Source of the DNA: Candidatus Dormiibacterota bacterium
GTDB lineage: Bacteria > Chloroflexota > Dormibacteria > Aeolococcales > Aeolococcaceae
Assembly: GCA_003142035.1 (NCBI GenBank)
Contig: PLOF01000112.1
Coordinates: 8,377 to 55,613 of the forward strand
Direction of reading: 5' to 3'
Length of the DNA: 47,237 nucleotides
Of this stretch, positions 11,582 through 42,139 are shown piece by piece. Under the pieces are notes generated by a model that did not search any database, had not been told where the DNA came from, and was given only the letters and a program-made list of their open reading frames with translations. The translations under genes were made by a program, and so were the position numbers. Each line of letters opens with the position of its first letter. Position 1 is the stretch's first letter.

Positions 11582-12433
11582 TCAGCCCTCGGCAGCACCC
11601 CCCGCCGCGGGTGCGGCGTCGGTGACCGGCACCATCTCGTCGTCGAGGCTCACCGACAGCTCGGGAGCGATCTTCCGGTGCTCGGCGGCCACCAGCCTGA
11701 CCGAGGTCCCGATGGCCAGGAACTCGATGACATGACTTCCCCACATGTGAGACTTCTGCTCGATCCGCATGGCCACGATGCCGTGGGCGCGCGACCGCTG
11801 CGCCTCCTGCTGCATCCGGGTCATGGCCAGCTCGCGGGCCTCGTACAGGGCCGAGGTGTAATTGCCGAGCTCGACGTTCTGGCTCTGCTGGCCGACCCAA
11901 GCACCGAGCCGCTGGTGGGCGACGTGGTAGACGCAGGCCCCGAAGGCGAGGCCGATGGGCTGGTAGCCGGCGCGGATCAAGAGGTAGAGGTCCTGCCCGG
12001 AGAGATCGCTGACCCAGATGCCGCTCGACTTCACGTTGGGATTTGCGACCGCCGTGCCCATGGCGACGAACTCGGCGAGGGGGTGGTTCCCCTGATGGAT
12101 CTGGACCTCGAGCTTGAGACCGACCACACCCTGGCCGCCGACCTGCTGGGCGTGGCGCTCCATGGCGGTGAGCGCCTCGGTACGGGCCTGGTACATGGCC
12201 TGGGTCAGGTCGCCCATCTCCTGGTTGGTAGTCCAGTTGGCGTACTGGATGCCGATGTGGTAGACGGCGCTGCCGACCACCAGCCCCTTGGGCTCGTAGC
12301 CGATCTCCTTGAGCAGCACCGCCTCGTCGACGGAGAGATCGCTGCTGAAGGCGCGACCCTGATGGCGCTCACTGCTCTTCCCGGCCAGACAGGCGAGGGC
12401 GGCGTCGGCGCGGGGGTGGGGCATGACCGACAT
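11582..12433 (-). CDS. Tandem-domain YbjQ/UPF0145-like protein (copy 3 of the operon)
   Basis: Two YbjQ-like domains: FSSDLSVDEAVLLKEIGYEPKGLVVGSAVYHIG and WVSDLSGQDLYLLIRAGYQPIGLAFGACVYHVAHQ; ALYEARELAMTRMQQEA. Confidence 0.75.
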   Translation of the reverse strand: MSVMPHPRADAALACLAGKSSERHQGRAFSSDLSVDEAVLLKEIGYEPKGLVVGSAVYHIGIQYANWTTNQEMGDLTQAMYQARTEALTAMERHAQQVGGQGVVGLKLEVQIHQGNHPLAEFVAMGTAVANPNVKSSGIWVSDLSGQDLYLLIRAGYQPIGLAFGACVYHVAHQRLGAWVGQQSQNVELGNYTSALYEARELAMTRMQQEAQRSRAHGIVAMRIEQKSHMWGSHVIEFLAIGTSVRLVAAEHRKIAPELSVSLDDEMVPVTDAAPAAGGAAEG

Positions 12434-13380
12434 CAGCGCAGCCTCATGATCGGCAACGGAGGCTCATCGAGGGGCTCCTTGGCGTAGCGCCGCACCGCGG
12501 TGCCGAGCAGGAAGAGCTCGACCAGCATGGACTCGCCGCCCAGCTCGTAGGTGGAGAGATCGGTCTCGACGCCGACCGCGCCGTCGGCGTCGACGGTCGC
12601 CACCTCGGCCTCGAGGTGGTTGATGCCGAGCATCCGGGCCTCCTCGATGCCGTCGCTGATCTGCTGGATGCGCGTGTTCGACCACGAGCGCAGCGCCCAC
12701 TCGGTGCCGCAACCGGGGTCGATCTCCATCGCCCCGATGCCCATCACCAGCGCCACCGGGACGTAGCCGCCGTGGAGCAGCTTGCTGAAGGCGACACCGT
12801 CGAGGTGGGACATGAACGGGGAGCGGAGCTTCGGGCCGCCACGGCGGCGCACCGCCGTGCCGATGCACGTGAACTCCAGTGAGTTGCCGACACCCTCCAG
12901 GTGGCGGCGGAGGATGCGCACCCCGACCACCCCGTGAGCGCCCAGGCCCTGTGCCTCCTCGAGGATCCGGCGGAGCGCGGCGTCGCGGGTCTCGGTGATA
13001 CCGGCCTCGTAGAAGCGGTGCTCCCAGTTGTACCCGGTGCGGTGCTCGCTGCCGACCCCGTAACCGTAGAAGCCGTGTGGGCAGGGGTAGGTGCGCACCC
13101 TGCCTCCGCCGGTCGCGCCGCCCAGGCCGTAGACGGTGGTGTACCCCCATTGAGCCGCGATCCGGTAGACGCTCGAGCCCATCACCATCCCCACCGGCTC
13201 GAAACCGGCGTGCTGTATGGCCGCCATCTCGGACACCGAGAGGTCGCTGGTCCAGGCAGACTTGCCCTCGCGCAGCTCCTCGATACGCTCCTGGGCCGCG
13301 AGCGGCAACCCGCCTCGCTCGAGGGACGCGATGCTCGCCAACTGGCGCTGCTGGGCGGCTGCGGCAGCCTCGTCGCTCAT
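12433..13380 (-). CDS. Tandem-domain YbjQ/UPF0145-like protein (copy 2, divergent second domain)
   Basis: WTSDLSVSEMAAIQHAGFEPVGMVMGSSVYRIAAQ; GAHGVVGVRI; second domain begins SPFMSHLDGVAFSKLLHGGYVPVALVMG. TGATG junctions with both neighbours. Confidence 0.7.
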   Translation of the reverse strand: MSDEAAAAAQQRQLASIASLERGGLPLAAQERIEELREGKSAWTSDLSVSEMAAIQHAGFEPVGMVMGSSVYRIAAQWGYTTVYGLGGATGGGRVRTYPCPHGFYGYGVGSEHRTGYNWEHRFYEAGITETRDAALRRILEEAQGLGAHGVVGVRILRRHLEGVGNSLEFTCIGTAVRRRGGPKLRSPFMSHLDGVAFSKLLHGGYVPVALVMGIGAMEIDPGCGTEWALRSWSNTRIQQISDGIEEARMLGINHLEAEVATVDADGAVGVETDLSTYELGGESMLVELFLLGTAVRRYAKEPLDEPPLPIMRLR

Positions 13381-14219
13381 CAGCGGTCCAGCGACAGGAC
13401 CATGCGCGGCGTGGCGATCTCGCGGTCGGGCAGCTTGCGAACCGCGGTTCCCATCGCGAAGAACTCGATGGTGTGGCTGCCCCAGACGTGCGACTTCTCC
13501 TGGATCTGAACCCCCACGATGCCCTCGGCGCCGACCTTCTTGGCCTCGTCCTGCATCCGCTCCATGGCCAGCTCGCGGGCCTCGTAGAGCGCCTGGGTGA
13601 AGTTGGGCATCTCCTTGTTCTGCCCTATGTTGCCCATCGCCTGGAACATCCCCTGGTGGGCGACGTGGTAGACACAGGTGCCCATGACCAGCCCGAGCGG
13701 TGCGTGCCCGGCCTGCAGCAGGGTCCAGAAGTCCTGGCCGGAGAGGTCGGACGTGAACGGCTTGCCGGCCGGCGTCTTCCAGTTGCCGCCATCCTCGGCG
13801 CTCACCGCCGTGCCGAGGGCGAGGAACTCGGCCGTGCCCCGGCCCCACTCGTAGAAGCCCACATCGAGACGGACCCCGACGACTCCGTCGGCACCCAGCA
13901 CGGCGGCCTCCTCCTCCATCCGGCTCATGGCGAGCTCGCGGGCCGCGTACATCGCCTGGGTCAGGGTCTGCACCTCACGGCTCGTGCTCCATCCCTTGGA
14001 GCTGAAGCCGATGTGGTAGATGCTGCTGCCCACCACCAGACCGCGCGGGTGGAAACCGGCCTCCTTGACCAGCAGGAACTCGTTGACCGAGAGGTCGCTG
14101 GTGAAGAGGGCGTCCTTGCCCTGCAGTTCGGCGAGGCGGCGGAGCGCATCCTTGGGGAGCCCCTCGAGGGGCGCCGGGGGAGCCTCGACCGGCTGAGGGG
14201 GATCCTCCTGCTGGGTCAT
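13380..14219 (-). CDS. Tandem-domain YbjQ/UPF0145-like protein (copy 1)
   Basis: FTSDLSVNEFLLVKEAGFHPRGLVVGSSIYHIG and FTSDLSGQDFWTLLQAGHAPLGLVMGTCVYHVAHQ; ALYEARELAMERMQDEAKKVGAEGIVGVQI; AGGAGG SD. Confidence 0.75.
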   Translation of the reverse strand: MTQQEDPPQPVEAPPAPLEGLPKDALRRLAELQGKDALFTSDLSVNEFLLVKEAGFHPRGLVVGSSIYHIGFSSKGWSTSREVQTLTQAMYAARELAMSRMEEEAAVLGADGVVGVRLDVGFYEWGRGTAEFLALGTAVSAEDGGNWKTPAGKPFTSDLSGQDFWTLLQAGHAPLGLVMGTCVYHVAHQGMFQAMGNIGQNKEMPNFTQALYEARELAMERMQDEAKKVGAEGIVGVQIQEKSHVWGSHTIEFFAMGTAVRKLPDREIATPRMVLSLDR

Positions 14220-30136: not shown

Positions 30137-32017
30137 ATGCTGCTGGACGAGATCACCTGTCCCGACGACCTGCGCGGGCTCAGCCCCCAGGACCTGAACC
30201 GGCTCTGTGCCGAGATCCGGGAGTTCCTGGTGGCCGCGGTCGCCCGAACCGGGGGCCACCTGGGGCCGAACCTCGGGGTGGTGGAGTTGACCGTGGCCCT
30301 CCACCGCACCTTCCACTCGCCGCGCGATGCCCTGGTTTTCGACACCGGGCACCAGGCCTACGTTCACAAGATGCTGACCGGGCGGCTGGCGGCCTTCGGC
30401 CAGCTTCGCCAGCGAGGCGGCCTCTCCGGCTATCCCAACCGAGCCGAGTCCGAGCACGACATCGTCGAGAACTCCCACGCCTCCACGGGCCTCAGCTACG
30501 CGGTGGCGCTGGCCACCGCCCGCCAGCTGACCGGGGAGCCCGGCAAGGTGGTCTGCGTGGTCGGTGACGGCGCGCTGACCGGCGGGATGGCCTACGAGGC
30601 GCTCAACAACATCGGCCACCTTCAACCCGAGCTGATCATCATCCTGAACGACAACGGACGTTCCTACGCCCCTACCATCGGCGGCCTCGCCGCGAACCTG
30701 GGCCAGCTCCGCCTCTCCCCCACCTACGAGGCGGCCAAGGACGCCACCGGCCGCACCCTGCGGCATCTCCCCCTGGTCGGCGACTCCGCCTACCAGGCCG
30801 CCAAGCGGGTCAAGGCTTCGCTCAAGCAACTGGTCGCCACCACCTCGCTGTTCGAGACCCTCGGGCTCAAGTACGGCGGCCCCATCGACGGGCACGACGT
30901 GGCCGCCTTGGAGCGCGCCATGCGCGACGCCGCAGCATACCGTGGACCGGTGGTCATCCACGTCGTGACCAACAAGGGCAACGGTTATGCCCCCGCAGTT
31001 CAGGACGATATCGACAAATACCACGGGGTTTCGACGTTCGATCCCAAAGACGGGAGCTTCGCCGTCAAGGCTCCGTCCTGGACCGATCTCTTCGGCGAAG
31101 CTCTGCTGGAGGCGGCCGAGAAGGACGCCCGGATCGTCGCCATCACGGCGGCGATGGCATCATCCACCGGCCTGCTCGCCTTCGCCGAGCGCTTTCCGGA
31201 CCGCTTCTTCGATGTTGGCATCGCCGAGCAGCACGCCGTCACCTTCGCCGCCGGACTGGCGATGAAGGGGCTCCGGCCCGTGGTGTGCATCTACTCCTCA
31301 TTCCTGCAACGCGCCTTTGACCAGATCGCATGCGACGCCTGCCTCCATCAGCTCCCGGTCACCTTCGTGCTCGACCGCGCCGGCATCACCGGCGACGACG
31401 GGCCCTCCCACCACGGGATGCTCGACCTCGCCTTCCTGCGCTGCATCCCCAACCTGGTGGTGGCGGCGCCGAGCAGCCCCGACGAGATGCGCAGGATGCT
31501 GGCCACCGCGCTGGCCCACGACGGGCCCTTCGCCTTCCGTTACCCGCGGGGGACGGCGCCGACGGCCGGGACGGCTCCGCTCAAACCGCTCGTGATCGGG
31601 CGGGCGGTGGTCCGGCGCGAGGGGACGGACATCGCCATCATGGCCGTGGGGAAGATGGTCCGGGTGGCCCTCGAGGCGGCCACTCAGCTCAAGGCGGAGG
31701 GCGTGAGCGCCACGGTGGTCGACGCCCGCTTCGTCAAGCCGCTCGACCCCCACCTCGCCGATATCGCCGCGGCGCACCGCGCCGTCCTGACCGTCGAGGA
31801 CGGGACGCGCGTGGGAGCGTTCGGGAGCGCCGTCGCCGAATTGTTGGGGGACTGCGGGGTGACGGTGCCCCTGCACCGGCTGGGCATCCCCGACCGTTTC
31901 GTCGAGCACGGCAACCAGGCGCTGCTGCTTCGCGAGCTGGGACTGGACGCGGACGGCGTCGCCCGGTCGGCGCGTGAGCTGCTGGCCATGGTGCGGCCCG
32001 CCCACGCCCTGGCCTGA
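30137..32017 (+). CDS. dxs: 1-deoxy-D-xylulose-5-phosphate synthase
   Basis: GGHLGPNLGVVELTVALHRTF; VVGDGALTGGMAYEALNN; DRAGITGDDGPSHHGMLDLAFL; PIDGHDV. Confidence 0.97.
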   Translation: MLLDEITCPDDLRGLSPQDLNRLCAEIREFLVAAVARTGGHLGPNLGVVELTVALHRTFHSPRDALVFDTGHQAYVHKMLTGRLAAFGQLRQRGGLSGYPNRAESEHDIVENSHASTGLSYAVALATARQLTGEPGKVVCVVGDGALTGGMAYEALNNIGHLQPELIIILNDNGRSYAPTIGGLAANLGQLRLSPTYEAAKDATGRTLRHLPLVGDSAYQAAKRVKASLKQLVATTSLFETLGLKYGGPIDGHDVAALERAMRDAAAYRGPVVIHVVTNKGNGYAPAVQDDIDKYHGVSTFDPKDGSFAVKAPSWTDLFGEALLEAAEKDARIVAITAAMASSTGLLAFAERFPDRFFDVGIAEQHAVTFAAGLAMKGLRPVVCIYSSFLQRAFDQIACDACLHQLPVTFVLDRAGITGDDGPSHHGMLDLAFLRCIPNLVVAAPSSPDEMRRMLATALAHDGPFAFRYPRGTAPTAGTAPLKPLVIGRAVVRREGTDIAIMAVGKMVRVALEAATQLKAEGVSATVVDARFVKPLDPHLADIAAAHRAVLTVEDGTRVGAFGSAVAELLGDCGVTVPLHRLGIPDRFVEHGNQALLLRELGLDADGVARSARELLAMVRPAHALA

Positions 32018-32033
32018 CTGGAACCGGGCCCCC

Positions 32034-32729
32034 ATGGGCACCGTGCTCGTCACCGTCGCCGGTCCGACGTCGCGGATGGACCTCTCCCTCCCCACCGACG
32101 CAGCGGTGGGGGAGCTCGTACCGGCTCTGGTGGAGCGCTGCGAGCCCGAACCGAAGCCCTGGAGCCGCTGGGCGCTCGGGCCGGCGGAAGGCGCTCCGTT
32201 CGCACCCCGGCAGACGCTCGCCGAGCTGGGTGTGGTCGAGGGGGCGGAGCTGCAACTGCGCGACATGGTCGCCGGCGGCGACGCCAGGGGTGAGCCGCTG
32301 GACACCGGGCCCGCGGGAGCGGCGGCGGCGGCCGACCAGCGGCGGCGGAAGATCTCCGACCTGACCGAGCGGTTGATCGACGACATCGGCCGCCTCCGCG
32401 CCGGGAAGAACCCGCTGCTCGAGTACGCCGCCCCCGAGGCTCGGCGGTGTCTCCGAGCCCTGGTTCCGGGGCCCTTCGACCGCGCGGCGAATGGTGGTGC
32501 CTCCGATCTCAGCCTGGCAGTGAGCTGGCATCGCGACCCGCGAGCACCGGTGGAGGCGCTCGCCGGCTTCACGGAGATCGCAGCGGACGCCGGGGGGCCG
32601 GGCGGCTCACGACGCGAGCCCCTCTCCAACGCGACGCCGGGCCGGCGGGTGAGCGTCAGGATGACCGTCGACGCTCACTGCCGCCACCTTCTCGACGTCA
32701 GCGTCGCCGCCGACCCGCCGCCACGCTGA
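32034..32729 (+). CDS. YukD/EccD N-terminal ubiquitin-like domain protein (soluble)
   Basis: GTVLVTVAGPTSRMDLSLPTDAAVGELVPALVERC...WSRWALGPAEGAPFAPRQTLAELGVVEGAELQLRD resembles the type VII secretion ubiquitin-like domain; no TM region follows. Confidence 0.65.
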   Translation: MGTVLVTVAGPTSRMDLSLPTDAAVGELVPALVERCEPEPKPWSRWALGPAEGAPFAPRQTLAELGVVEGAELQLRDMVAGGDARGEPLDTGPAGAAAAADQRRRKISDLTERLIDDIGRLRAGKNPLLEYAAPEARRCLRALVPGPFDRAANGGASDLSLAVSWHRDPRAPVEALAGFTEIAADAGGPGGSRREPLSNATPGRRVSVRMTVDAHCRHLLDVSVAADPPPR

Positions 32730-32743
32730 CACGGTGGTGAAGA

Positions 32744-32766
32744 ACGCCCTGTGGCGGGACGGGCGT
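32744..32766. terminator. Hairpin between the convergent YukD-like and DUF11-like genes
   Basis: ACGCCC (32744-32749) and GGGCGT (32761-32766), 11-nt loop. Confidence 0.3.
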
Positions 32767-33713
32767 CAGGTCACCTGGACCGGCGCGCTCTCCGAGATGA
32801 ACACGCGCTCCTGGCCGAGGTCGCCAAGCACCTGGACACCGACCGGGTAGGTGCCCTGCGCCCCGGCAGAGGAGAGTACCTGGGCATCGAAGTCGATGGT
32901 CAGCTTGCCGGGGCTGGATCCGCTCTGGGCGGGGACCACGAAACCGTCGAAGAAGGGGAGCGTGGAACCCTCCAACGGGTTGGTGCCGCCGACGCGGCCG
33001 GAGTTCCCGGTGATCGTGACCGAACCGTCGAAGATGAAGACGGGCGGCAGAGTCACCAGCACGCTGACGTCGTTGGCGGGGCCGGTGCCCTGGTTGATGA
33101 CGCTCACCCTGTACGTGACGTCCTCGCCTGGCACCGCCAGGCTGGGGCTGACCGTGACCAGCGCCGAGAGCTGGGGGGCAGCGGTCAGCTTGATGGGCAG
33201 TGGGTTGCTCTGAGTGGTCGACGCCGTCGACGCGGAGGCGCTCGCCGTCATGGTGTAGGTATTCGGACTTCCCAGGGCGAGAGCGTCGAAGTCGATGGTC
33301 ACGTCGTCCTTGTAACCGCTCAACTCCCAAACTCCCCAGGCCGGCTGGTGGCTCTGACCCTGGGCGTCGACCGGCGAGGTTCGCACCGCGCTGCCGCCCA
33401 GGCCCGGGGTATCCGTGTAGCGGAAGTCCGCCGGCAGGTTGGCGGTGACGGTGAGCCCGGCCGTGCCCGCCGTTCCGGTATCGATGACCGTGATGACGAA
33501 CTCGATCGTCTGGTTGGCGGCGACGGTCGTGCTCGGGTCAACCGTTCCCAGGGTGACGCTCAGCGACGTGTGGTTGGCTCCACAACCGGCCGCCGCCATC
33601 GCGCCGAGGATGGCGGGAAGGACGAGCAGGCGGGAGAGCTTCGGCAGCCACGCGGCACGCCCACCGCCAACCGGACGGCGCCCCCGGCCTGCCGGCCCCC
33701 CCTCGGATGTCAT
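32766..33713 (-). CDS. Secreted lipoprotein with two DUF11/CARDB-like beta-sandwich repeats
   Basis: Signal LLVLPAILGAMAAAGC; repeats VAANQTIEFVITVIDTGTAGTAGLTVTANLPADFRY and VPGEDVTYRVSVINQGTGPANDVSVLVTLPPVF. Confidence 0.8.
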   Translation of the reverse strand: MTSEGGPAGRGRRPVGGGRAAWLPKLSRLLVLPAILGAMAAAGCGANHTSLSVTLGTVDPSTTVAANQTIEFVITVIDTGTAGTAGLTVTANLPADFRYTDTPGLGGSAVRTSPVDAQGQSHQPAWGVWELSGYKDDVTIDFDALALGSPNTYTMTASASASTASTTQSNPLPIKLTAAPQLSALVTVSPSLAVPGEDVTYRVSVINQGTGPANDVSVLVTLPPVFIFDGSVTITGNSGRVGGTNPLEGSTLPFFDGFVVPAQSGSSPGKLTIDFDAQVLSSAGAQGTYPVGVQVLGDLGQERVFISESAPVQVT

Positions 33714-33751
33714 CCGGCCCTGCGAGACCCGCAGGCCCACACCGGGGCGGG

Positions 33752-34498
33752 TCACACCCTCTGGGCGGCGCGCATCGGCGCCAGCGGACGGCGCTCGCGT
33801 CGCGGCGGCGTCAGCGGGACATCGGTGGCTCTGGGAAGCGGATCCGGATAACCGGCCTCGGCGAGGAGGCGCAGGGTGAGGGCGACATCCAGCCCAACGA
33901 CGGTGTCGACCCGACCACTCACCGCCTCGACAAAGTCTCCGCCGGCCCCCTGCACCGCGTACGCGCCGGCCTTGTCGAGGGGCTCGCCGCTCGCGACGTA
34001 GGTGATCAGGTCCTGTTCGGAGAAGTCGCGCATCTTGACCAGCGAGCGCGAGACCGCGAGCGCCTCGACATCGGTGCCAGACCTCAGGACGCAGATCCCG
34101 GTGAGGACCGTGTGGCGCCGGCCACGCAGGTCGGTCAGCATCCGGAGTGCCGCCTCCGGCGTGCCCGGCTTGCCGAGGGGGCCGCGCGGCCCCACCACGA
34201 CGGTGTCCGCCGCCACGACGAAGCTGCCGGGCTCGACGCGCTCCGCGACCTCCACCGCCTTCTGACGGGCGATGAGCTGACAGCCGAGGTCCGCACACAT
34301 CCCGGGGGGAAGTGGCGGATCCGGTGAAGGCTCGACGACGGCGAAGCGGATCCCGGCCCGGACCAGCAGTTCGCGCCGGCGGGGGCTGGAGGAGGCGAGG
34401 ACGATCCGTACCAACGGTGCGCTGGACACCCGGGGTGCAACGTGCCTGAACGAGGACGACGCCCGAACGCCGGGAAGTTGCTCGTCTGAGTCGGTCAT
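33752..34498 (-). CDS. maf: Maf-family nucleotide pyrophosphatase
   Basis: RIVLASSSPRRRELLVRAGIRFAVVEPS; VVAADTVVVGPRGPLGKPGTPEAALRMLTDLRGRRHTVLTGICV; YVASGEPLDKAGAYAVQG. Confidence 0.93.
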   Translation of the reverse strand: MTDSDEQLPGVRASSSFRHVAPRVSSAPLVRIVLASSSPRRRELLVRAGIRFAVVEPSPDPPLPPGMCADLGCQLIARQKAVEVAERVEPGSFVVAADTVVVGPRGPLGKPGTPEAALRMLTDLRGRRHTVLTGICVLRSGTDVEALAVSRSLVKMRDFSEQDLITYVASGEPLDKAGAYAVQGAGGDFVEAVSGRVDTVVGLDVALTLRLLAEAGYPDPLPRATDVPLTPPRRERRPLAPMRAAQRV

Positions 34499-34660: not shown

Positions 34661-35374
34661 TCAGTGGAGCACGACCGCGAGCGAGATCGAGGCGGGCACC
34701 AGGGCGAGCAGTCCCAGGGCCGGCGCGACGACCACCACCAGGCGGCGGCTCACCCCGATGAGACCGGTGTAGGCGACCACGGAGAGGGCACCGAGGACAG
34801 CCACCACGGGAGCGGAGACGCCGGCGAGAGGCGCGAACCCGGCCAGAGAGAAGCAGGCCAGGCCGATGGCGGCAACCAGTGCCGCCCGCCCCATCCGCGC
34901 GGTGTGGGGGTCGAAGGGACGGACGAGGGTAGGCAGCGCCATCAGCACGGCGACGACGGCCCAGGGCCGGGCTGCGCCCACCGATCCCCCGGCGGCCGCA
35001 ATGGTGCCCAGGTCCAGCGTCGTCGCCACCGAGGCAAGTCCGAGGAGGGGGGCGATCGCTGCGGCGACCGCCGCCAACCGCTGCCAGGGCCACCTCTCCG
35101 CGCTGCCCCAGGCGATGCCCGCGGCCAGGGCCGTGACGAACACCACCAGGCTCACGCCCGTGGGCAGTCCGAAGAGGGGGGAGCCCGGGAAGGCCAGCAA
35201 CCCACAGGCGGCGCTGACGCCGACGGCGACCATCAGTTCGTCGAGCTGGGCGGGGCGGAGCCCGGCGGGGATGCGACCGCCGAGGGCGACCAGGGCCGCC
35301 ACCAGGCCCGCATAGGCCACGCCGGGGAATACGGCCACGGCCACGATCGCGCTCAGCACCGCCAGCGGGTTCAT
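34661..35374 (-). CDS. Membrane protein, degenerate NuoH/HyfC-like
   Basis: Multi-TM; TTLDLGTIAAAGG...VVAVLMALPTLVRPFDPHTAR resembles the NuoH/HyfC ...RTPFDxPEAE segment with acidic residues lost; ATGA overlap with the preceding gene. Confidence 0.5.
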   Translation of the reverse strand: MNPLAVLSAIVAVAVFPGVAYAGLVAALVALGGRIPAGLRPAQLDELMVAVGVSAACGLLAFPGSPLFGLPTGVSLVVFVTALAAGIAWGSAERWPWQRLAAVAAAIAPLLGLASVATTLDLGTIAAAGGSVGAARPWAVVAVLMALPTLVRPFDPHTARMGRAALVAAIGLACFSLAGFAPLAGVSAPVVAVLGALSVVAYTGLIGVSRRLVVVVAPALGLLALVPASISLAVVLH

Positions 35375-36597
35375 GCGCCAGGTCCGAAGACGAGGTGAAC
35401 CGCTCCCATCGGGAGCAGGCCCACGGCCAGCGCCACCGCGGCAATCAGCCAGGCGGCGACGACCCGGTGGTGGGGCGCCGGCGCCCCCTCACCGGGTTCG
35501 CCCTGAGCGACGGTCAGGACGGCGGTCACCGTCACCAGCCCCCCGGCGAGCAGGCAGGCGGCGGCGACGCTGGAGTTGAAGGCGACGCACGCCTGGAGGA
35601 TGAGGAACCGTCCCCAGAACGCCGGGGAGGGGGGGAGCCCGCAGATGGCGAGCCAGACCAGGCGGCGGGGTGGGCCCAGACCAGGTCGCGGCGTCTGCAG
35701 GAGGATCGGGGCGACGACCAGGTGGGTGAGGATGAGCAGCAGCCCGCCGGCGACGGCGGCTGTCTCCCCGGTGCCGATGGCGGCGGCGACGAGGCCGAGG
35801 TCACCGAGAGCCACCCGGCCGTAGCGGGTGGGCCCGGCGCGGAGGCTCATCACCCCGGCCCAGAGCGCACTGATCAGACCGCAGGTGAGGATGGTGTGGT
35901 CGAAGGCGAGCCTCGCGAGAAGGGGGAGCGGGCCGGGGATCGCGAAGGCGGAGAGCAGGACGGCGGGCGCAAGCAGCACCAGCCAGGTGGCGATCTCGGG
36001 AGCGGGCAGGTCCACCAGGGCGCCGGCCGCCCATCCACCGAGCGGCACGACCGCGGCCAGGGCGAGCACCCCGACCACCAAGAGGCCGCCGACCATACCC
36101 GGCTCGCCACCGGAGGCGGCGGCGGGCAGGAGCAGGCTGACCGCGAGCAGGGCGGCCGCCCCCGTGCCGGCGACTCGGGCGGCGGCAAGGCTGGCTCGCC
36201 CCGGCGCCACCGAGATCCAGCGAAGGCTGAGGGCGGCGACGGCAAGCATGGCCGCGACCCCGAAGAGGAGGGGGGACCCCGTCGAGAGGAGGAGCACCAC
36301 AGCCCCCCCGACGGTCCCCATCCCGATGATCTCGCGGCCGTCCAGGCGGTCGGCGAGAAGCAGGCACAGCCAGAGGGCGGTGGCCGACGCGGAGAGGAGG
36401 CCGCCGGCTTCGCGGGGCAGCGCCGGACCAGCACCGCCCAGCCCGTCCGGTCGCGCGCCGACCTGCACCGTGGCGATGGTGAGAGCGACGAGCACGAGGG
36501 GCGCGATCAGGGCGATCGGACGGCGAAAGCGAGCCGGGCCGAGCCCGGCGATGATTCCGATGCCGGCCCAGGCGGCGGCCAGCCACACAGCGTTCAT
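35371..36597 (-). CDS. Membrane protein, degenerate NuoN/HyfF (antiporter-type) family
   Basis: Multi-TM; LAICGLPPSPAFWGRFLILQA matches the NuoN/M/L-type GxPPxxGFWxKFxIF motif; PLGGWAAGALVDLPAPEIATW matches PxxxWLPDAxxGxPTPVSA. Confidence 0.65.
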   Translation of the reverse strand: MNAVWLAAAWAGIGIIAGLGPARFRRPIALIAPLVLVALTIATVQVGARPDGLGGAGPALPREAGGLLSASATALWLCLLLADRLDGREIIGMGTVGGAVVLLLSTGSPLLFGVAAMLAVAALSLRWISVAPGRASLAAARVAGTGAAALLAVSLLLPAAASGGEPGMVGGLLVVGVLALAAVVPLGGWAAGALVDLPAPEIATWLVLLAPAVLLSAFAIPGPLPLLARLAFDHTILTCGLISALWAGVMSLRAGPTRYGRVALGDLGLVAAAIGTGETAAVAGGLLLILTHLVVAPILLQTPRPGLGPPRRLVWLAICGLPPSPAFWGRFLILQACVAFNSSVAAACLLAGGLVTVTAVLTVAQGEPGEGAPAPHHRVVAAWLIAAVALAVGLLPMGAVHLVFGPGA

Positions 36598-37226
36598 CGA
36601 CCCGCCTCGGGGGCCACGGGCCGGTGGCGGGCGGCCAGCCACCCCTCCAAGGCCGCCGCGACGGGAACGAGGGCGATGACACCGGTCACATCCGGAAGGG
36701 GGCCGCTCCCTCCCCGGAGCAGCCAGCCCACGCTCACCGCGAAAGCGAGGGCGACCACGCCCACGGAGAGGTCGGTGACGGTGCGGGCGAGGAGGACGCG
36801 GAGCACACCGCAGGTGAAGATGAAAGCGACCGGGAAGAGCGCGCCCTGCACGGGGGCGACCGACCCGACCGGCACGTTGAAACTGACCCACGAGGCCGCG
36901 ATCAGGGCAATGACGCCGGCCGCCACGCGAGCGCTGCGAGGCCCGAAGAGCCCCTCGTGCTGCGTCGCGACCGAGTGGAGCGGGTCGATCCCGGAGCGCG
37001 GGCCGAGCCGCCCGGCGATGGTCCCGGCCAGCGGGCCGGCGGCGGCACCGGCCGCACCGGCTCCGAGAACGATGACCGCCGCCCAGCCGCCGCCATAGAT
37101 CGCGGCCGCAGGAGAGAGACCGAGAGCGACCGCGATGCAGGTGACGAGGACGGCGCGCCGCCGGTCGACCGTGACAACGACAGCCCCGGCGGCGAAGGCG
37201 ATGAGGTCCAGAAGCGGCTGGTTCAC
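36594..37226 (-). CDS. Multi-TM membrane protein (HyfE/NuoK-like position)
   Basis: About 6 hydrophobic segments; GTG start overlaps the preceding stop (GTGA); weak resemblance only. Confidence 0.5.
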   Translation of the reverse strand: MNQPLLDLIAFAAGAVVVTVDRRRAVLVTCIAVALGLSPAAAIYGGGWAAVIVLGAGAAGAAAGPLAGTIAGRLGPRSGIDPLHSVATQHEGLFGPRSARVAAGVIALIAASWVSFNVPVGSVAPVQGALFPVAFIFTCGVLRVLLARTVTDLSVGVVALAFAVSVGWLLRGGSGPLPDVTGVIALVPVAAALEGWLAARHRPVAPEAGR

Positions 37227-38992
37227 AGGTAGTGGAAACCGAGGAGAGCGGCGAGGGCCACGACCACCGTGAAGACGAGGCCGGGCTGGGTCACCAACCA
37301 CGAGTCGAGACGGGCCAGCCCGCGTCCGAGCCCGCGGGTGGGAGGTCCGAGAGCCCGGCGGGCCCCGACGACGGCGACCCAGGCGGGCCGCGGCCGCGGC
37401 CCCCGCTCGCCGTGCGCGGGGTGGGGGAAGGGGACCCCGAGGGCCAGCCCACCGCTCACGACCGCGAGCAGGACGACCAGGAGCGCCAGGCTGAGGTAGC
37501 CGCCCGGCCAGGGCCCTCCCGGCCCGTGCAGGGTGGCGGCGTCGATGGCGACGGGGGCCCCGCTGCCCACCAGGGGACCCAGCAGCACCGCGCCCACGAC
37601 ACCGGGGAAGAGCGCAGCAGCAGCGCCCAGCACAAGAGCCACGGCGGCATCGGGCCGCGGCAGCACGGCGCGCCGAAGCAGCCTCGGGGGCAGCACCCCC
37701 CCTCCGACAGGGGAACTCTCACGGAGGGGTGAGACCTCCCCGTCGCCGGATGGCGGGGACGCCGCCGCGGCCTCCCCGGAGGTGAGGGCGGCGAGCCCGA
37801 TCGCCTGCCGTGCCGCGACCACCCCCCCACCGGCGGCGATGACGGCGGCCATCCCCAGGGCGAGCAGGAGCGGCGCGTACGGACGGCCCAGGGAGGAGAC
37901 CGCGCCGAGTTCGAGAACCATGGCCGTGGTCCCGAACCCGATGGGCAGCCCGCCTGCGGCAGCCAGTGCGGTCGCGGCGAGTGCGCGGCCGCGGCGGGTG
38001 GGCAGGGTCGGCCTGCTCCAGGCGGGCGCCGCCAGCAGGGCCAGCTCGAGGGCCACCACCCCGGCCGCAAACCCGCCGGCACCGCCGGGAAGCCCGGCGA
38101 TGGCGACCAGAGTGCCCGCCGAGGCGGTGAGCAGCGCCCTGCCCGCACGGCGCGACTCGTGCTTCCACCGCCAGGCAGCGACGGCACCCCAGAGGGCGGC
38201 GGCGGTCCCGAAGGTGGCGAGAATCACCGTGAAGCCGGGGTCCGCCGCGCCCCCGGTAGCCGCTCCGAGCCGGAGCAGGGTCGCCGCGCCGCACGGGACC
38301 GCCCCGATGGCGAGCCAGCTCCTGGTCGACCGCCCTCCGGCGGCTCCAGGCCACCACCCCGCGGCGAGCAGACGCCCAGCCCCGGCCAGGCCCCAGGGCA
38401 GCGCCACCAAGAGGCCGGCCGCACCCGGGGGAACCGCGTAGGGATCGCTCGTCCCGGTGGTCACGATGAGCTCCACGGCGGCCACCAGCAGGCCCAGGGC
38501 GAAGACGTGCTGGATCGTGAAGGCGGCGGCGGCCCCCCGGCTCACCCGCTCTCGACCCGCTGTCGCCAGCAGCAGGCCGCCGAGGCTGGCGATCTCCGCA
38601 CCGGCGAAGAGCATCACCGCATTGCCGGCCAGAGCGGCGAGCACCGCGCCGGCGGCGGTGACCAGGAGCGCCGCCTCCTCGCCGGGCCGGCGGTCGGCCG
38701 CACCGAGGGCAAAGAAGGTGGCCACGAGGGCGAGCAGAGCCAGGGCCAGACCCGTTTGATCGGCACGGAGCGTGAGCTGGACCCCCGATACCGCCTGTCC
38801 AAAGGTCGTGACAATCGGACCGTTGGTGGTGATCGCGGCGATGCTGAGGGCTGCCCACCCGGTGAGGAGCAGGATCCCGGCGCTGAACAGCCGGCGCGTC
38901 TGCCGCCACGGAGCGGGCAGGAGGTAGGCGACGAGCGCCCCGGCGAGGAGTAGGGCGAGGACCAGGGCGGACCGGTTTCCCACGCTCAACAA
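37223..38992 (-). CDS. Membrane protein, degenerate NuoL/M/HyfB-like
   Basis: About 14 TM; LFAGAEIASLGGLLLA corresponds to the FxxWELxSLxSYLLI region; LAGAGRLLAAGWWPGAAGG to the KSAQxPLHxWLPDAMxG region. Confidence 0.6.
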   Translation of the reverse strand: MLSVGNRSALVLALLLAGALVAYLLPAPWRQTRRLFSAGILLLTGWAALSIAAITTNGPIVTTFGQAVSGVQLTLRADQTGLALALLALVATFFALGAADRRPGEEAALLVTAAGAVLAALAGNAVMLFAGAEIASLGGLLLATAGRERVSRGAAAAFTIQHVFALGLLVAAVELIVTTGTSDPYAVPPGAAGLLVALPWGLAGAGRLLAAGWWPGAAGGRSTRSWLAIGAVPCGAATLLRLGAATGGAADPGFTVILATFGTAAALWGAVAAWRWKHESRRAGRALLTASAGTLVAIAGLPGGAGGFAAGVVALELALLAAPAWSRPTLPTRRGRALAATALAAAGGLPIGFGTTAMVLELGAVSSLGRPYAPLLLALGMAAVIAAGGGVVAARQAIGLAALTSGEAAAASPPSGDGEVSPLRESSPVGGGVLPPRLLRRAVLPRPDAAVALVLGAAAALFPGVVGAVLLGPLVGSGAPVAIDAATLHGPGGPWPGGYLSLALLVVLLAVVSGGLALGVPFPHPAHGERGPRPRPAWVAVVGARRALGPPTRGLGRGLARLDSWLVTQPGLVFTVVVALAALLGFHYL

Positions 38993-39029: not shown

Positions 39030-39521
39030 CTAGTGCGGTGCGGGCGCCCTGGGGGGAGCCGTGGGCAACGCGTGGGCACCGACCTCGGTGGCGCAGTACG
39101 GGCAGACCGGCCAGCCCAGCCGCAGCCTCCGCTCACAGACGGTGCACCTGCGGGCGAACTGGGTGCGGCAGTACGGGCAGATGACGAAGTCCTCTTCGAT
39201 GTCGCGCCCGCAGGTCGGGCACGGGCGGGTGTCCGGCGTGCCGGTGGGGGGCTCCTCGAGGATCTGCTGCTCGAGAGCCAGGGAGCGCTCCTCCGCGAGC
39301 GTCCTCGGCGGACGGATCACCAGGTAGATGAGGGCCCCCAGGAAGGGGGGTACGAAGGCGAGCAGGAAGGCGAAGATCGCAAAGGGGATCGACGCGGAGC
39401 GCCGCCTGGCGTCCCGCACCACGTTGTAGGCCAGCGCCACCAGGAGCAGGGCCACATAGACGATGAGCAGGAGGACGCCGAGGAAGATGAGCGAGCCGCT
39501 GGTATCGGCGAGAAGCTTCAT
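39030..39521 (-). CDS. TM protein with double zinc ribbon
   Basis: Two N-terminal TM helices, then four CxxC knuckles: CPTC, CPYC, CTVC, CPYC; ATGA overlap with valS. Confidence 0.75.
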   Translation of the reverse strand: MKLLADTSGSLIFLGVLLLIVYVALLLVALAYNVVRDARRRSASIPFAIFAFLLAFVPPFLGALIYLVIRPPRTLAEERSLALEQQILEEPPTGTPDTRPCPTCGRDIEEDFVICPYCRTQFARRCTVCERRLRLGWPVCPYCATEVGAHALPTAPPRAPAPH

Positions 39522-42139
39522 TCGGAGATCCCTAAGCGACGGCGCAGGGTCTGCGCCTGCAGCTCCACCTCGCGGAGCTGGTCGGTGGCCTTCTTGACCA
39601 CGCTTTCGGGGGCACGCTCCCGGAACGCGGTGTTGGCGAGCTGCGCGCGGAGCCGGGCGATTTGGCGCTCGACGTCGTCGAGCTGGCGGCGCAGCTTCTC
39701 CTCCCCTCCGCCCCCGAGGTGCAGCTCGGCCTCGAGGCTGCCGGCGATCACCAGCTGGGCCTCGCCGCCGTCATCGCCATCGGCGACCCGAACGCGGACC
39801 AGGGCCTCGAGAATGCGACGGCGGTCGACGGCCGAGAGGGAGGGGTTGCCGCCCCGGATGACGACGGGAGAGAGGGTCTTGTCGGCCGCGCTGATGCCCG
39901 CCTCCTGGCGTCGGGCGCGGAGCTGTCCGACCAGCAGGAGCAGCTCGTCAACACCGTCACGAGCGCCGGCCCATTCCGGTGCGCCCCACTCGGGCAGGAC
40001 GGTAGGCCAGGAGCGGTGCTGGAGGGTCGGAGCGGGGTCGGGTAGCCGCTGCGCGCACTCCTCGGTGACGAAGGGCATGAACGGGTGGAGGAGGCGCAGC
40101 GCGGAGTCGAGCACGGTGACCGCGGTCGCCGCCGCCGCCTCCCTCCCCTGCCCGTCCTCGCTGTTGCGCAGGCGCACCTTCACGATCTCCATGTAGTCGG
40201 AGCAGAAATCCTGCCAGATCACGCTGTAGAGGCGGTCCATGGCGTCGTGAAAGCGGTACTGGGTCATGGCCTGATCGACGGTGGCCACCGCATCGGCGAG
40301 ACGCTCGAGGATCCAGTGGTCCTCGGCGAGGAGCGCCGCGACCGGGACCGCCGGCGGCCGCACCACGATCCGATCACCGTCACCGATGGCCGTGACCAGG
40401 AGCCGGGTGACATTCCAGAGCTTGTTGGCGAATCGCTGGTAACTGGCGACCCGCTCCTCGTCGTAGCGGACGTCCTGACCGCTCGTGCCAACCGCTCCGG
40501 CCCAGGCACGGACGGCGTCGGAGCCGTAGCGCCCGATGATGTCCAGAGGGTCGACCGCGTTGCCCCGCGACTTCTGCATCCGGGTGCCGTCGCGGGCCAT
40601 GATCGTGGACGTGATGATCACGTCCGCGAAGGGCGTGCGGCCGGTGAACCTGAGACCGGTCATGATCATCCGGGCCACCCAGAGGTAGATGATCTCGCGC
40701 GCCGTCACCAGCACCTGGGTGGGATAGAAGCGACTCAGATCGCGGGTTTGCTCCGGCCAGCCGAAGATGGCGAACGGCCAGAGGGCGCTCGAGAACCAGG
40801 TGTCGAGGACATCGGGATCGTGCTCCAGCCGGTCGCTGCCGCAGCTGGGGCAGATCTCCGGTGTGTCCACCCAGGCGAAGCGATGGCCGTTGCCGCACCG
40901 GCTCACCGGGATCGCGTGGCCGAGCCAGATCTGGCGGCTGATGCACCAGTCCCGAATGCCATGCATCCAGGTCAGGTACTGATCCCCATAGCGCTCGGGA
41001 TGGAAGGAGACATCCCCCCTCTCGACCGCGGCGATGGCGGGCTCGGCCAGGGTCGTCATGCGCACCCACCACTGCTCGCTCACGAGCGGCTCGATCACGT
41101 GGTGACAACGATCGCAGTGGCTGACCTCGTGAACGTAGGGCTCCTCACCGCCCACCGCCCCCTGCTCGCGGAGGGCCTCGGTGACCTCGCGACGAGCGGC
41201 CTCCACCGTGAGACCGTGGAAACGGGGGAGATCGGGGACGTCCATGGTCCCGTCCAGCCCGATCACGTTGACGATCGCGAGACCGTGGCGGACGCCGATC
41301 TCGTAGTCGGTGGGATCGTGGCCCGGGGTGACCTTGAGTGCACCGGTGCCGAAGGCCACGTCGACCGCCGCGTCGGCGACGATCGGGACGCGCCGGCCGG
41401 TGAGGGGAAGGATGACGTGACGGCCCACCAGGTCCCGGTAGCGGGGATCGTCGGGATTCACCGCCACCGCCGAGTCCCCCAGCATCGTCTCGGGACGGAC
41501 CGTGGCCACGACCACCTCGCCGCCGCCCTCCACGGGGTAGCGCAGGCGGGTCAGGGTGTCGTGGTGCTCGATCCACTCGACCTCTTCATCGCTGATGGCG
41601 CTGCGATCGTGGGGGCACCAGTTGACGATGCGGGGGCCCCGATAGATCAGGCCCTCGTCGAAGAGGGCCTTGAAGACGGTGCGGATGGCCCGCACGTAGG
41701 CCTCGTCGAGGGTGAATCGCGAGCGCGACCAGTCGCACGTGAAGCCGAGCCGGCGCATCTGCTCGTAGATGCGGCCGCCACATTCCTCATACCAGGCGTC
41801 CACCCGAGTCTGGAAAGCGGCGCGTCCGATCGCCTCGCGGCTGGTGCCCTCCGCGACCAGCTGGCGCTCGATCACCGCGTTGGTGGCGATGGCGGCGTGA
41901 TCGGTGCCGGGGCACCACTCGACCTCGGCGCCACGCATCCGCCAGTGGCGGGCCAGGATGTCCTGGACCGAGAAGCCCATGGCGTGGCCCATGTGGAGCG
42001 GGGCGGTGATGTTGGGAGGCGGCAGGGCGATGGTGAAGCTGGGACGGTCCGACGTGGCCTCCGCCCGGCCCACCTCCAGCTCCTCCCACCGGAGGCGCCA
42101 GCGGGGTTCGACCTCCGCCGGCTCGAACTTCGATTCCAT
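39518..42139 (-). CDS. valS: Valyl-tRNA synthetase
   Basis: PPPNITAPLHMGHAMGFSVQDILARHWRMRG; GTDHAAIATNAVIE; KMSKS-equivalent KSRGNAVDP; C-terminal coiled coil. Confidence 0.96.
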   Translation of the reverse strand: MESKFEPAEVEPRWRLRWEELEVGRAEATSDRPSFTIALPPPNITAPLHMGHAMGFSVQDILARHWRMRGAEVEWCPGTDHAAIATNAVIERQLVAEGTSREAIGRAAFQTRVDAWYEECGGRIYEQMRRLGFTCDWSRSRFTLDEAYVRAIRTVFKALFDEGLIYRGPRIVNWCPHDRSAISDEEVEWIEHHDTLTRLRYPVEGGGEVVVATVRPETMLGDSAVAVNPDDPRYRDLVGRHVILPLTGRRVPIVADAAVDVAFGTGALKVTPGHDPTDYEIGVRHGLAIVNVIGLDGTMDVPDLPRFHGLTVEAARREVTEALREQGAVGGEEPYVHEVSHCDRCHHVIEPLVSEQWWVRMTTLAEPAIAAVERGDVSFHPERYGDQYLTWMHGIRDWCISRQIWLGHAIPVSRCGNGHRFAWVDTPEICPSCGSDRLEHDPDVLDTWFSSALWPFAIFGWPEQTRDLSRFYPTQVLVTAREIIYLWVARMIMTGLRFTGRTPFADVIITSTIMARDGTRMQKSRGNAVDPLDIIGRYGSDAVRAWAGAVGTSGQDVRYDEERVASYQRFANKLWNVTRLLVTAIGDGDRIVVRPPAVPVAALLAEDHWILERLADAVATVDQAMTQYRFHDAMDRLYSVIWQDFCSDYMEIVKVRLRNSEDGQGREAAAATAVTVLDSALRLLHPFMPFVTEECAQRLPDPAPTLQHRSWPTVLPEWGAPEWAGARDGVDELLLLVGQLRARRQEAGISAADKTLSPVVIRGGNPSLSAVDRRRILEALVRVRVADGDDGGEAQLVIAGSLEAELHLGGGGEEKLRRQLDDVERQIARLRAQLANTAFRERAPESVVKKATDQLREVELQAQTLRRRLGISE

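Follow-up and report, generated by a model that had tools for sequence, protein, structure and literature searches.

Four overlapping genes on the minus strand, s1-s2-s3-s4, occupy positions 34661-38992 of a 47,237-nucleotide stretch of DNA from a Candidatus (Ca.) Dormiibacterota bacterium (contig PLOF01000112.1; this whole stretch is called the window), and all four encode membrane proteins. We conclude that this cassette is an orphan membrane arm of the complex I type, found across Ca. Dormibacteria, a class of uncultured soil bacteria, and that its capacity for proton pumping appears to be lost; this conclusion is well supported for s1 and s3 and moderately supported for s4. Because the proton-pumping residues are lost and the enzyme half is absent, the arm probably now serves a new purpose. 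We tentatively favor, with slightly less than even confidence, a non-redox, non-pumping membrane assembly that serves as an envelope scaffold. The window is part of contig C92 of a 2.55-Mb genome that is about 90% complete. An earlier note on this DNA had the open reading frame (ORF) coordinates, the protein lengths (589, 210, 408, and 237 aa) and the 4-nt overlap at every junction between the four genes right, and our literature search found no account of this cassette. The four genes are:

s1, 37223..38992, minus strand: 589 aa, TTG start; NuoL/MrpA-type antiporter-like subunit in which the pump Lys positions are lost (the codon model favors a GTG start at 38983 over the TTG)
s2, 36594..37226, minus strand: 210 aa, GTG start; predicted 7-helix membrane protein, a class-specific marker of the cassette
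s3, 35371..36597, minus strand: 408 aa; NuoM/N/MrpD-type antiporter-like subunit
s4, 34661..35374, minus strand: 237 aa; NuoH/HycD-like predicted fold without conserved E-channel acids

The named relatives all come from Ca. Dormiibacterota, and Ca. Changshengia and Ca. Amunia are among them (the Ca. Amunia lineage belongs to class Ca. Dormibacteria, order Ca. Aeolococcales), and their families are labelled f1 to f4, with f1 being the window's own. The profile of each cassette family was run against all PDB sequences. For s3, 19 of 19 matches were antiporter subunits of complex I, Mrp, or MBH, with a best E-value of 5e-4; with f4 members added to the profile, all 24 matches fell in antiporter-like subunits of the same systems and the best improved to 1.1e-7. 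The s1 profile matched the chain 6u8y_X (5.4e-11) and MrpA (1.9e-7), spanning positions 12-558. Single-sequence Pfam searches with s1-s4 returned almost nothing, and the NCBIfam assignments, subunit M (PRK08668) for s1 (2.5e-5) and MrpD for s3 (1.6e-5), are both far below the family cut-offs. The two proteins also aligned in hhalign with each other (7e-8 over 407 columns), and s3 aligned with M2, a member of a second nuo set (2.4e-10). These profile matches, which extend across the antiporter fold, place s1 and s3, with strong support, in the NuoL/M/N-Mrp antiporter superfamily. In a tree of antiporter-like subunits, L2, M2, and N2 of the second nuo set group with canonical NuoL, NuoM, and NuoN (support 100 each) and HyfB groups with HyfF (97). 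The s1 sequences form their own clade, the s3 sequences do not form a single one, and both branch outside the canonical and second-set Nuo groups and the HyfB/HyfF group, at a distance where the alignment is poor. For this reason our claim on their origin is limited: s1 and s3 do not have the appearance of recent duplicates of the nuo or hyf genes in the same genome.

The assignment of s4 depends on its predicted structure. The AlphaFold2 model (predicted local distance difference test score, pLDDT, 83; predicted template modelling score, pTM, 0.81) has an ND1-like fold: the top Foldseek match was HycD of the Escherichia coli formate hydrogenlyase (7z0t_D, prob 1.00, TMq 0.57, E 0.039), followed by NdhA, NuoH, and ND1 chains, so that nearly all top ranks belong to one family. 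Because the Foldseek E-values are weak, we consider the support for a NuoH/HycD-like fold to be only moderate. The s4 profile had no significant match in the PDB, and hhalign found no match to NuoH, also when f4 members were included; the identification of s4 as NuoH by sequence was dropped on the latter result. The AlphaFold2 model of s2 (pLDDT 82, pTM 0.80) has seven helices. It had no match among PDB structures in Foldseek (best E 0.2) and its profile none below E 1 among PDB sequences. HyfE was likewise dropped as a sequence-based identity for s2, as hhalign gave no match, again also with f4 members, and no HyfE structure was among the Foldseek matches. An alignment of s2 with the NuoJ of the second nuo set was full-length but insignificant (E about 0.02 among about 20 comparisons), and we do not claim this relationship. 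Judged from profile and model searches, s2 is a new protein without known relatives and without demonstrable homology to complex I in sequence or fold. The earlier note had described all four proteins as a Hyf-like arm; the family of s1 and s3 and the fold of s4 agree with this description, which is unproven for the whole set because s2 shows no demonstrable homology to complex I.

Residues of the complex I proton path are replaced in both antiporter-like subunits. NuoM was mapped to s3 both directly and by way of two intermediate families, with the same answer, and residues were counted in alignments of 43 s3 (from f1, f2, and f4), 41 s1, and 35 s4 sequences. Compared to NuoM, s3 has no Glu in transmembrane helix (TM) 5 and no Lys in TM7; the Lys of TM8 is replaced by Pro211 and the Glu of TM12 by Arg330 in all 43 sequences, and the His of the axis by Asp266 in 42 of them, the remaining sequence reading X. 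In s1 the position of the TM8 Lys is Pro233 in 39/41 sequences, and the TM5 position is occupied by Glu (17), Gln (8), Thr (8), or Ala (5), with Glu kept only in the window's family. Neither protein carries the complete set of TM5 Glu, TM7 Lys, TM8 Lys, and TM12 Lys/Glu. Given these replacements at the mapped positions, the alignments indicate that protons cannot take the canonical path through s3, and most probably not through s1 either. HycD has a Glu-lined E-channel, in which substitutions strongly affect hydrogen production (PMC9474812); by contrast, no acidic position reaches 80% conservation in the s4 alignment, and the E-channel acids of the PFDxPEAE region are not a conserved feature of s4. 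Three motifs had been read by eye in the earlier note. The GxPPxxxFWGRF motif of s3 is real and conserved, the Glu of the AEIA motif of s1 is present in the window's family and gives way to Gln, Thr, or Ala elsewhere, and RPFD in s4, present in close relatives, is not conserved beyond them and represents a local feature rather than a family motif.

The enzyme half of a redox complex was not found with the cassette. Genome-wide searches with models for NuoD (PF00346), NuoH (PF00146), and NuoK (PF00420) gave no match on the window's contig, and no soluble Nuo or Hyf subunit was among the 28 window proteins scanned with Pfam (other window genes were not scanned singly, and models for NuoB/I and DabA were not run), in agreement with the earlier note, which had reported soluble subunits to be absent from the window. 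No recognisable soluble Nuo, Hyf, Mrp, or hydrogenase gene was seen beside the cassette in about 50 neighborhoods that were read; a co-encoded soluble redox module, that is, homologs of NuoB/C/D/I or of hydrogenase, is not part of it.

The cassette has a single genomic setting, the housekeeping locus valS-(zinc ribbon)-s1-s2-s3-s4-(maf-DUF11 lipoprotein or mreBCD-pbp2-rodA)-rplU-rpmA-obg. All four genes are present in three of the four sampled families of Ca. Dormibacteria (f1, f2, and f4), and f3 has a two-gene version. In f1 and f2 the orthologs keep the same order throughout, mostly with junctions of -4 or -1 nt, also in relatives at 55-63% GC. The s2 profile, for which there are no Nuo relatives that could confuse the search, gave clear matches in 12/12 f1, 12/12 f2, and 14/23 f4 genomes, and none outside the class among about 344 genomes of the phylum (best partial match 4.5e-4). 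With the s1 profile, full-length homologs were found in f1, f2, f3, and two f4 genomes. The s3 profile alone had suggested a restriction to one order, which was rejected when the s1 and s2 profiles found f4; neighborhoods of maf had by then already revealed the f3 version. All 12 f4 loci that were read carry s1, s2, s3, and s4 in order (in L223, s2 was seen through the ORF listing), downstream of valS (one contig starts at s1) and upstream of rplU/rpmA, and in six of the 12 (L224, L225, and L230-L233) mreB-mreC-mreD-pbp2-rodA directly follows s4, a place taken in other families by maf and DUF11 or by rplU. In f3 (L194-L201), two genes for proteins of about 520 aa lie between the zinc-ribbon gene and maf/DUF11 in seven loci, some of them cut by contig ends. 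The first protein matches s1 (1e-17), and the second, which matches s3 C-terminally (5e-7) and s2 weakly (0.015), is perhaps a fusion of an s3-like C-terminal part with an s2-like part. In another locus, L039 (G006:C22), s1 and s2 are read as one open frame of 796 aa, which may be a true fusion or may stem from an indel in the assembly. The genes that flank the cassette in the window are:

ZR, 39030..39521, minus strand: 163 aa; N-terminal hydrophobic segments and a double zinc ribbon (Pfam DZR, E 1.9e-8), in the same operon; present in f1 and f3 and not seen in f2 or f4
valS, 39518..42139, minus strand: borders the locus upstream in every family
maf, 33752..34498, minus strand: Pfam Maf, E 1.1e-50; downstream border in f1-f3
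DUF11 putative lipoprotein, 32766..33755, minus strand: Pfam DUF11, E 2.8e-11; lipobox read by eye

A small protein with a YukD domain (type VII secretion, ubiquitin-like) is encoded beside dxs at 31974-32729, near the locus only in the window's genus and in genome G018, and elsewhere in the window (11582-14219) three genes in a row each carry a YbjQ_1 (putative heavy-metal-binding) domain.

We propose that the four proteins would assemble into one membrane complex derived from a complex-I-type arm, with s1 as the NuoL/MrpA-type, s3 as the NuoM/N/MrpD-type, and s4 as the NuoH/HycD-like component, and s2 as a 7-helix subunit of its own. The complex would have lost its redox module and proton wire and been retained for another task outside redox chemistry. 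The invariant Asp266 and Arg330 of s3 could close the hydrophilic axis as a fixed ion pair. Guilt by association suggests that the complex, made together with growth and cell-shape genes, would act as a structural element or scaffold of the cell envelope; the whole basis for this is the gene neighborhood. A DUF11 protein is found in 39 of 40 f1-f3 genomes and in none of 21 f4 genomes; the lipoprotein is a likely candidate for an outside partner of the complex in the three former families, and its absence from f4 means that there is no DUF11 partner there. A more far-reaching version, which we regard as possible and rather doubtful, is that these parts of an arm with a closed proton path, together with the new 7-helix subunit, form a class-defining machine that serves envelope growth or cell shape beside mreBCD-pbp2-rodA, not energy conversion. 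The earlier note's broader reading, an orphan and degenerate membrane arm that was repurposed, is supported, and none of the observations it had named as fatal was made: PDB-wide, s1 and s3 match complex I/Mrp families and nothing else, the cassette of the relatives is not accompanied by soluble Nuo, Hyf, or Mrp subunits, and it is conserved across the class instead of being confined to one genome.

Several points weigh against the scaffold interpretation. The envelope role rests only on the neighborhood, and many bacteria conserve this housekeeping cluster; the co-occurrence with DUF11 could be explained by a single gain or loss. In addition, s1 retains the TM5 Glu in the window's family and s3 retains a His in 28/43 sequences, which therefore leaves room for ion movement by another route. 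The complex might still move an ion or small solute off the canonical Glu-Lys-His-Lys/Glu wire, for example, through a path for anions or lipids that the new Arg residues would line. Transporters share this fold, some Arg and Asp residues are still conserved (R141, D266, and R330 in s3; R100 and R143 in s2), and in f1-f2 the TM5 position of s1 still holds Glu or Gln. However, the change from the TM8 Lys to Pro is class-wide in both paralogs, s3 is without the TM5 Glu and TM7 Lys, s4 is without conserved acids, and no MrpB/C/E/F/G or DabA was seen in the cassette neighborhoods (the DabA model was not run). We consider altered transport somewhat unlikely.

The arm might alternatively belong to a redox complex that has the genes for its soluble module at another site. 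Subunits could be borrowed from the canonical nuo of the window's genome or from its separate Hyf-like set, and s4 is similar to the subunit at which soluble modules dock. However, NuoD (the 49-kDa/large-subunit family) is present in a single copy, located in the canonical nuo, in the well-assembled f1 genomes G010 (98% complete), G011, G012, and G017, and s4 is short (235-270 aa versus 306-364 aa for HyfC/NuoH in these genomes) and lacks conserved E-channel acids. We therefore reject a shared module as improbable, and the partnership with an unknown soluble module that the earlier note had offered is unlikely.

Loss of the pump residues, together with related decay in a second nuo set of the same lineage, could also mark the cassette as the decaying remains of a former complex I. 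This is contradicted by intact reading frames, new residues that are invariant across families, a fixed position throughout the class, and the ratios of nonsynonymous to synonymous substitution rates (dN/dS): pairwise values for s1-s4 are 0.16-0.38 within the genus and 0.38-0.47 in comparison to the more distant L081, similar to those of neighboring genes or slightly higher. The four genes are under purifying selection, and a remnant is scarcely credible. The dN/dS values and the conserved order and junctions of the orthologs, including those in relatives at 55-63% GC, also rule out chance ORFs. That four unrelated hydrophobic proteins resemble complex I through their composition is equally hard to credit: the content of Ala, Gly, Leu, and Val is very high and s2 and s4 have no sequence-level match, but the PDB matches of s1 and s3 all point to a single superfamily and line up in register with the TM7-TM12 motifs, and s2 and s4, although similarly hydrophobic, do not match that superfamily in sequence.

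Most of the relatives that were read harbor another orphan arm, mnmA-126aa-J2-K2-L2-M2-N2 (L075, G000:C102, 3713-10183; L205-L219). At the site of this second arm, the locus L205 (genome G014) carries an 11-subunit NuoABCD-HI-JKLMN set that keeps most pump residues. This is the sole genome seen with NuoABCDHI; the orphan second sets have lost most of these residues, with L212 being intermediate. The second nuo sets are thus close to a natural experiment on the loss of the redox module and add a comparison for the cassette. The two share the orphan state and, in most genomes, degraded pump residues; however, the second set is a clear sister of canonical NuoL/M/N in the tree.

A single energy-converting membrane module is thought to be common to complex I, Mrp, group 4 hydrogenases, and related systems. 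The cassette resembles the arm of respiratory complex I (NuoH/J/K/L/M/N) in combining two antiporter-like subunits with a NuoH-like fold, and s3 aligns along the whole of NuoM at low stringency. In contrast to complex I, the cassette has no quinone or NADH module, s3 is without the TM5 Glu, the TM7 and TM8 Lys, and the TM12 Glu, NuoJ/K are not recognised, and s2 is an extra subunit. The arms of formate hydrogenlyase, Hyf, and MBH-MBX are similarly small and composed of ND1-like and antiporter-like subunits; the best match of s4 is HycD, that of s1 is the archaeal NuoM-like chain 6u8y_X, and the C-terminus of s1, a short linker followed by a terminal hydrophobic helix as judged by eye, is like that of HycC. 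Unlike these systems, the cassette has no hydrogenase or ferredoxin subunits and no conserved E-channel acids, and s2 does not match HyfE. As in the Mrp antiporter, there is no redox partner, s3 matches MrpD (1.1e-7), and s1 matches MrpA over positions 12-558; however, Mrp keeps its charged axis, has MrpB/C/E/F/G, none of which were seen here, and has no NuoH-like subunit. If our interpretation is correct, then the shared energy module is reusable beyond energy conversion, in this case class-wide, at a fixed locus, under purifying selection, and with both redox half and wire lost. The cassette would then represent a natural mutant with which the residues needed by the fold can be separated from those needed by the pump.

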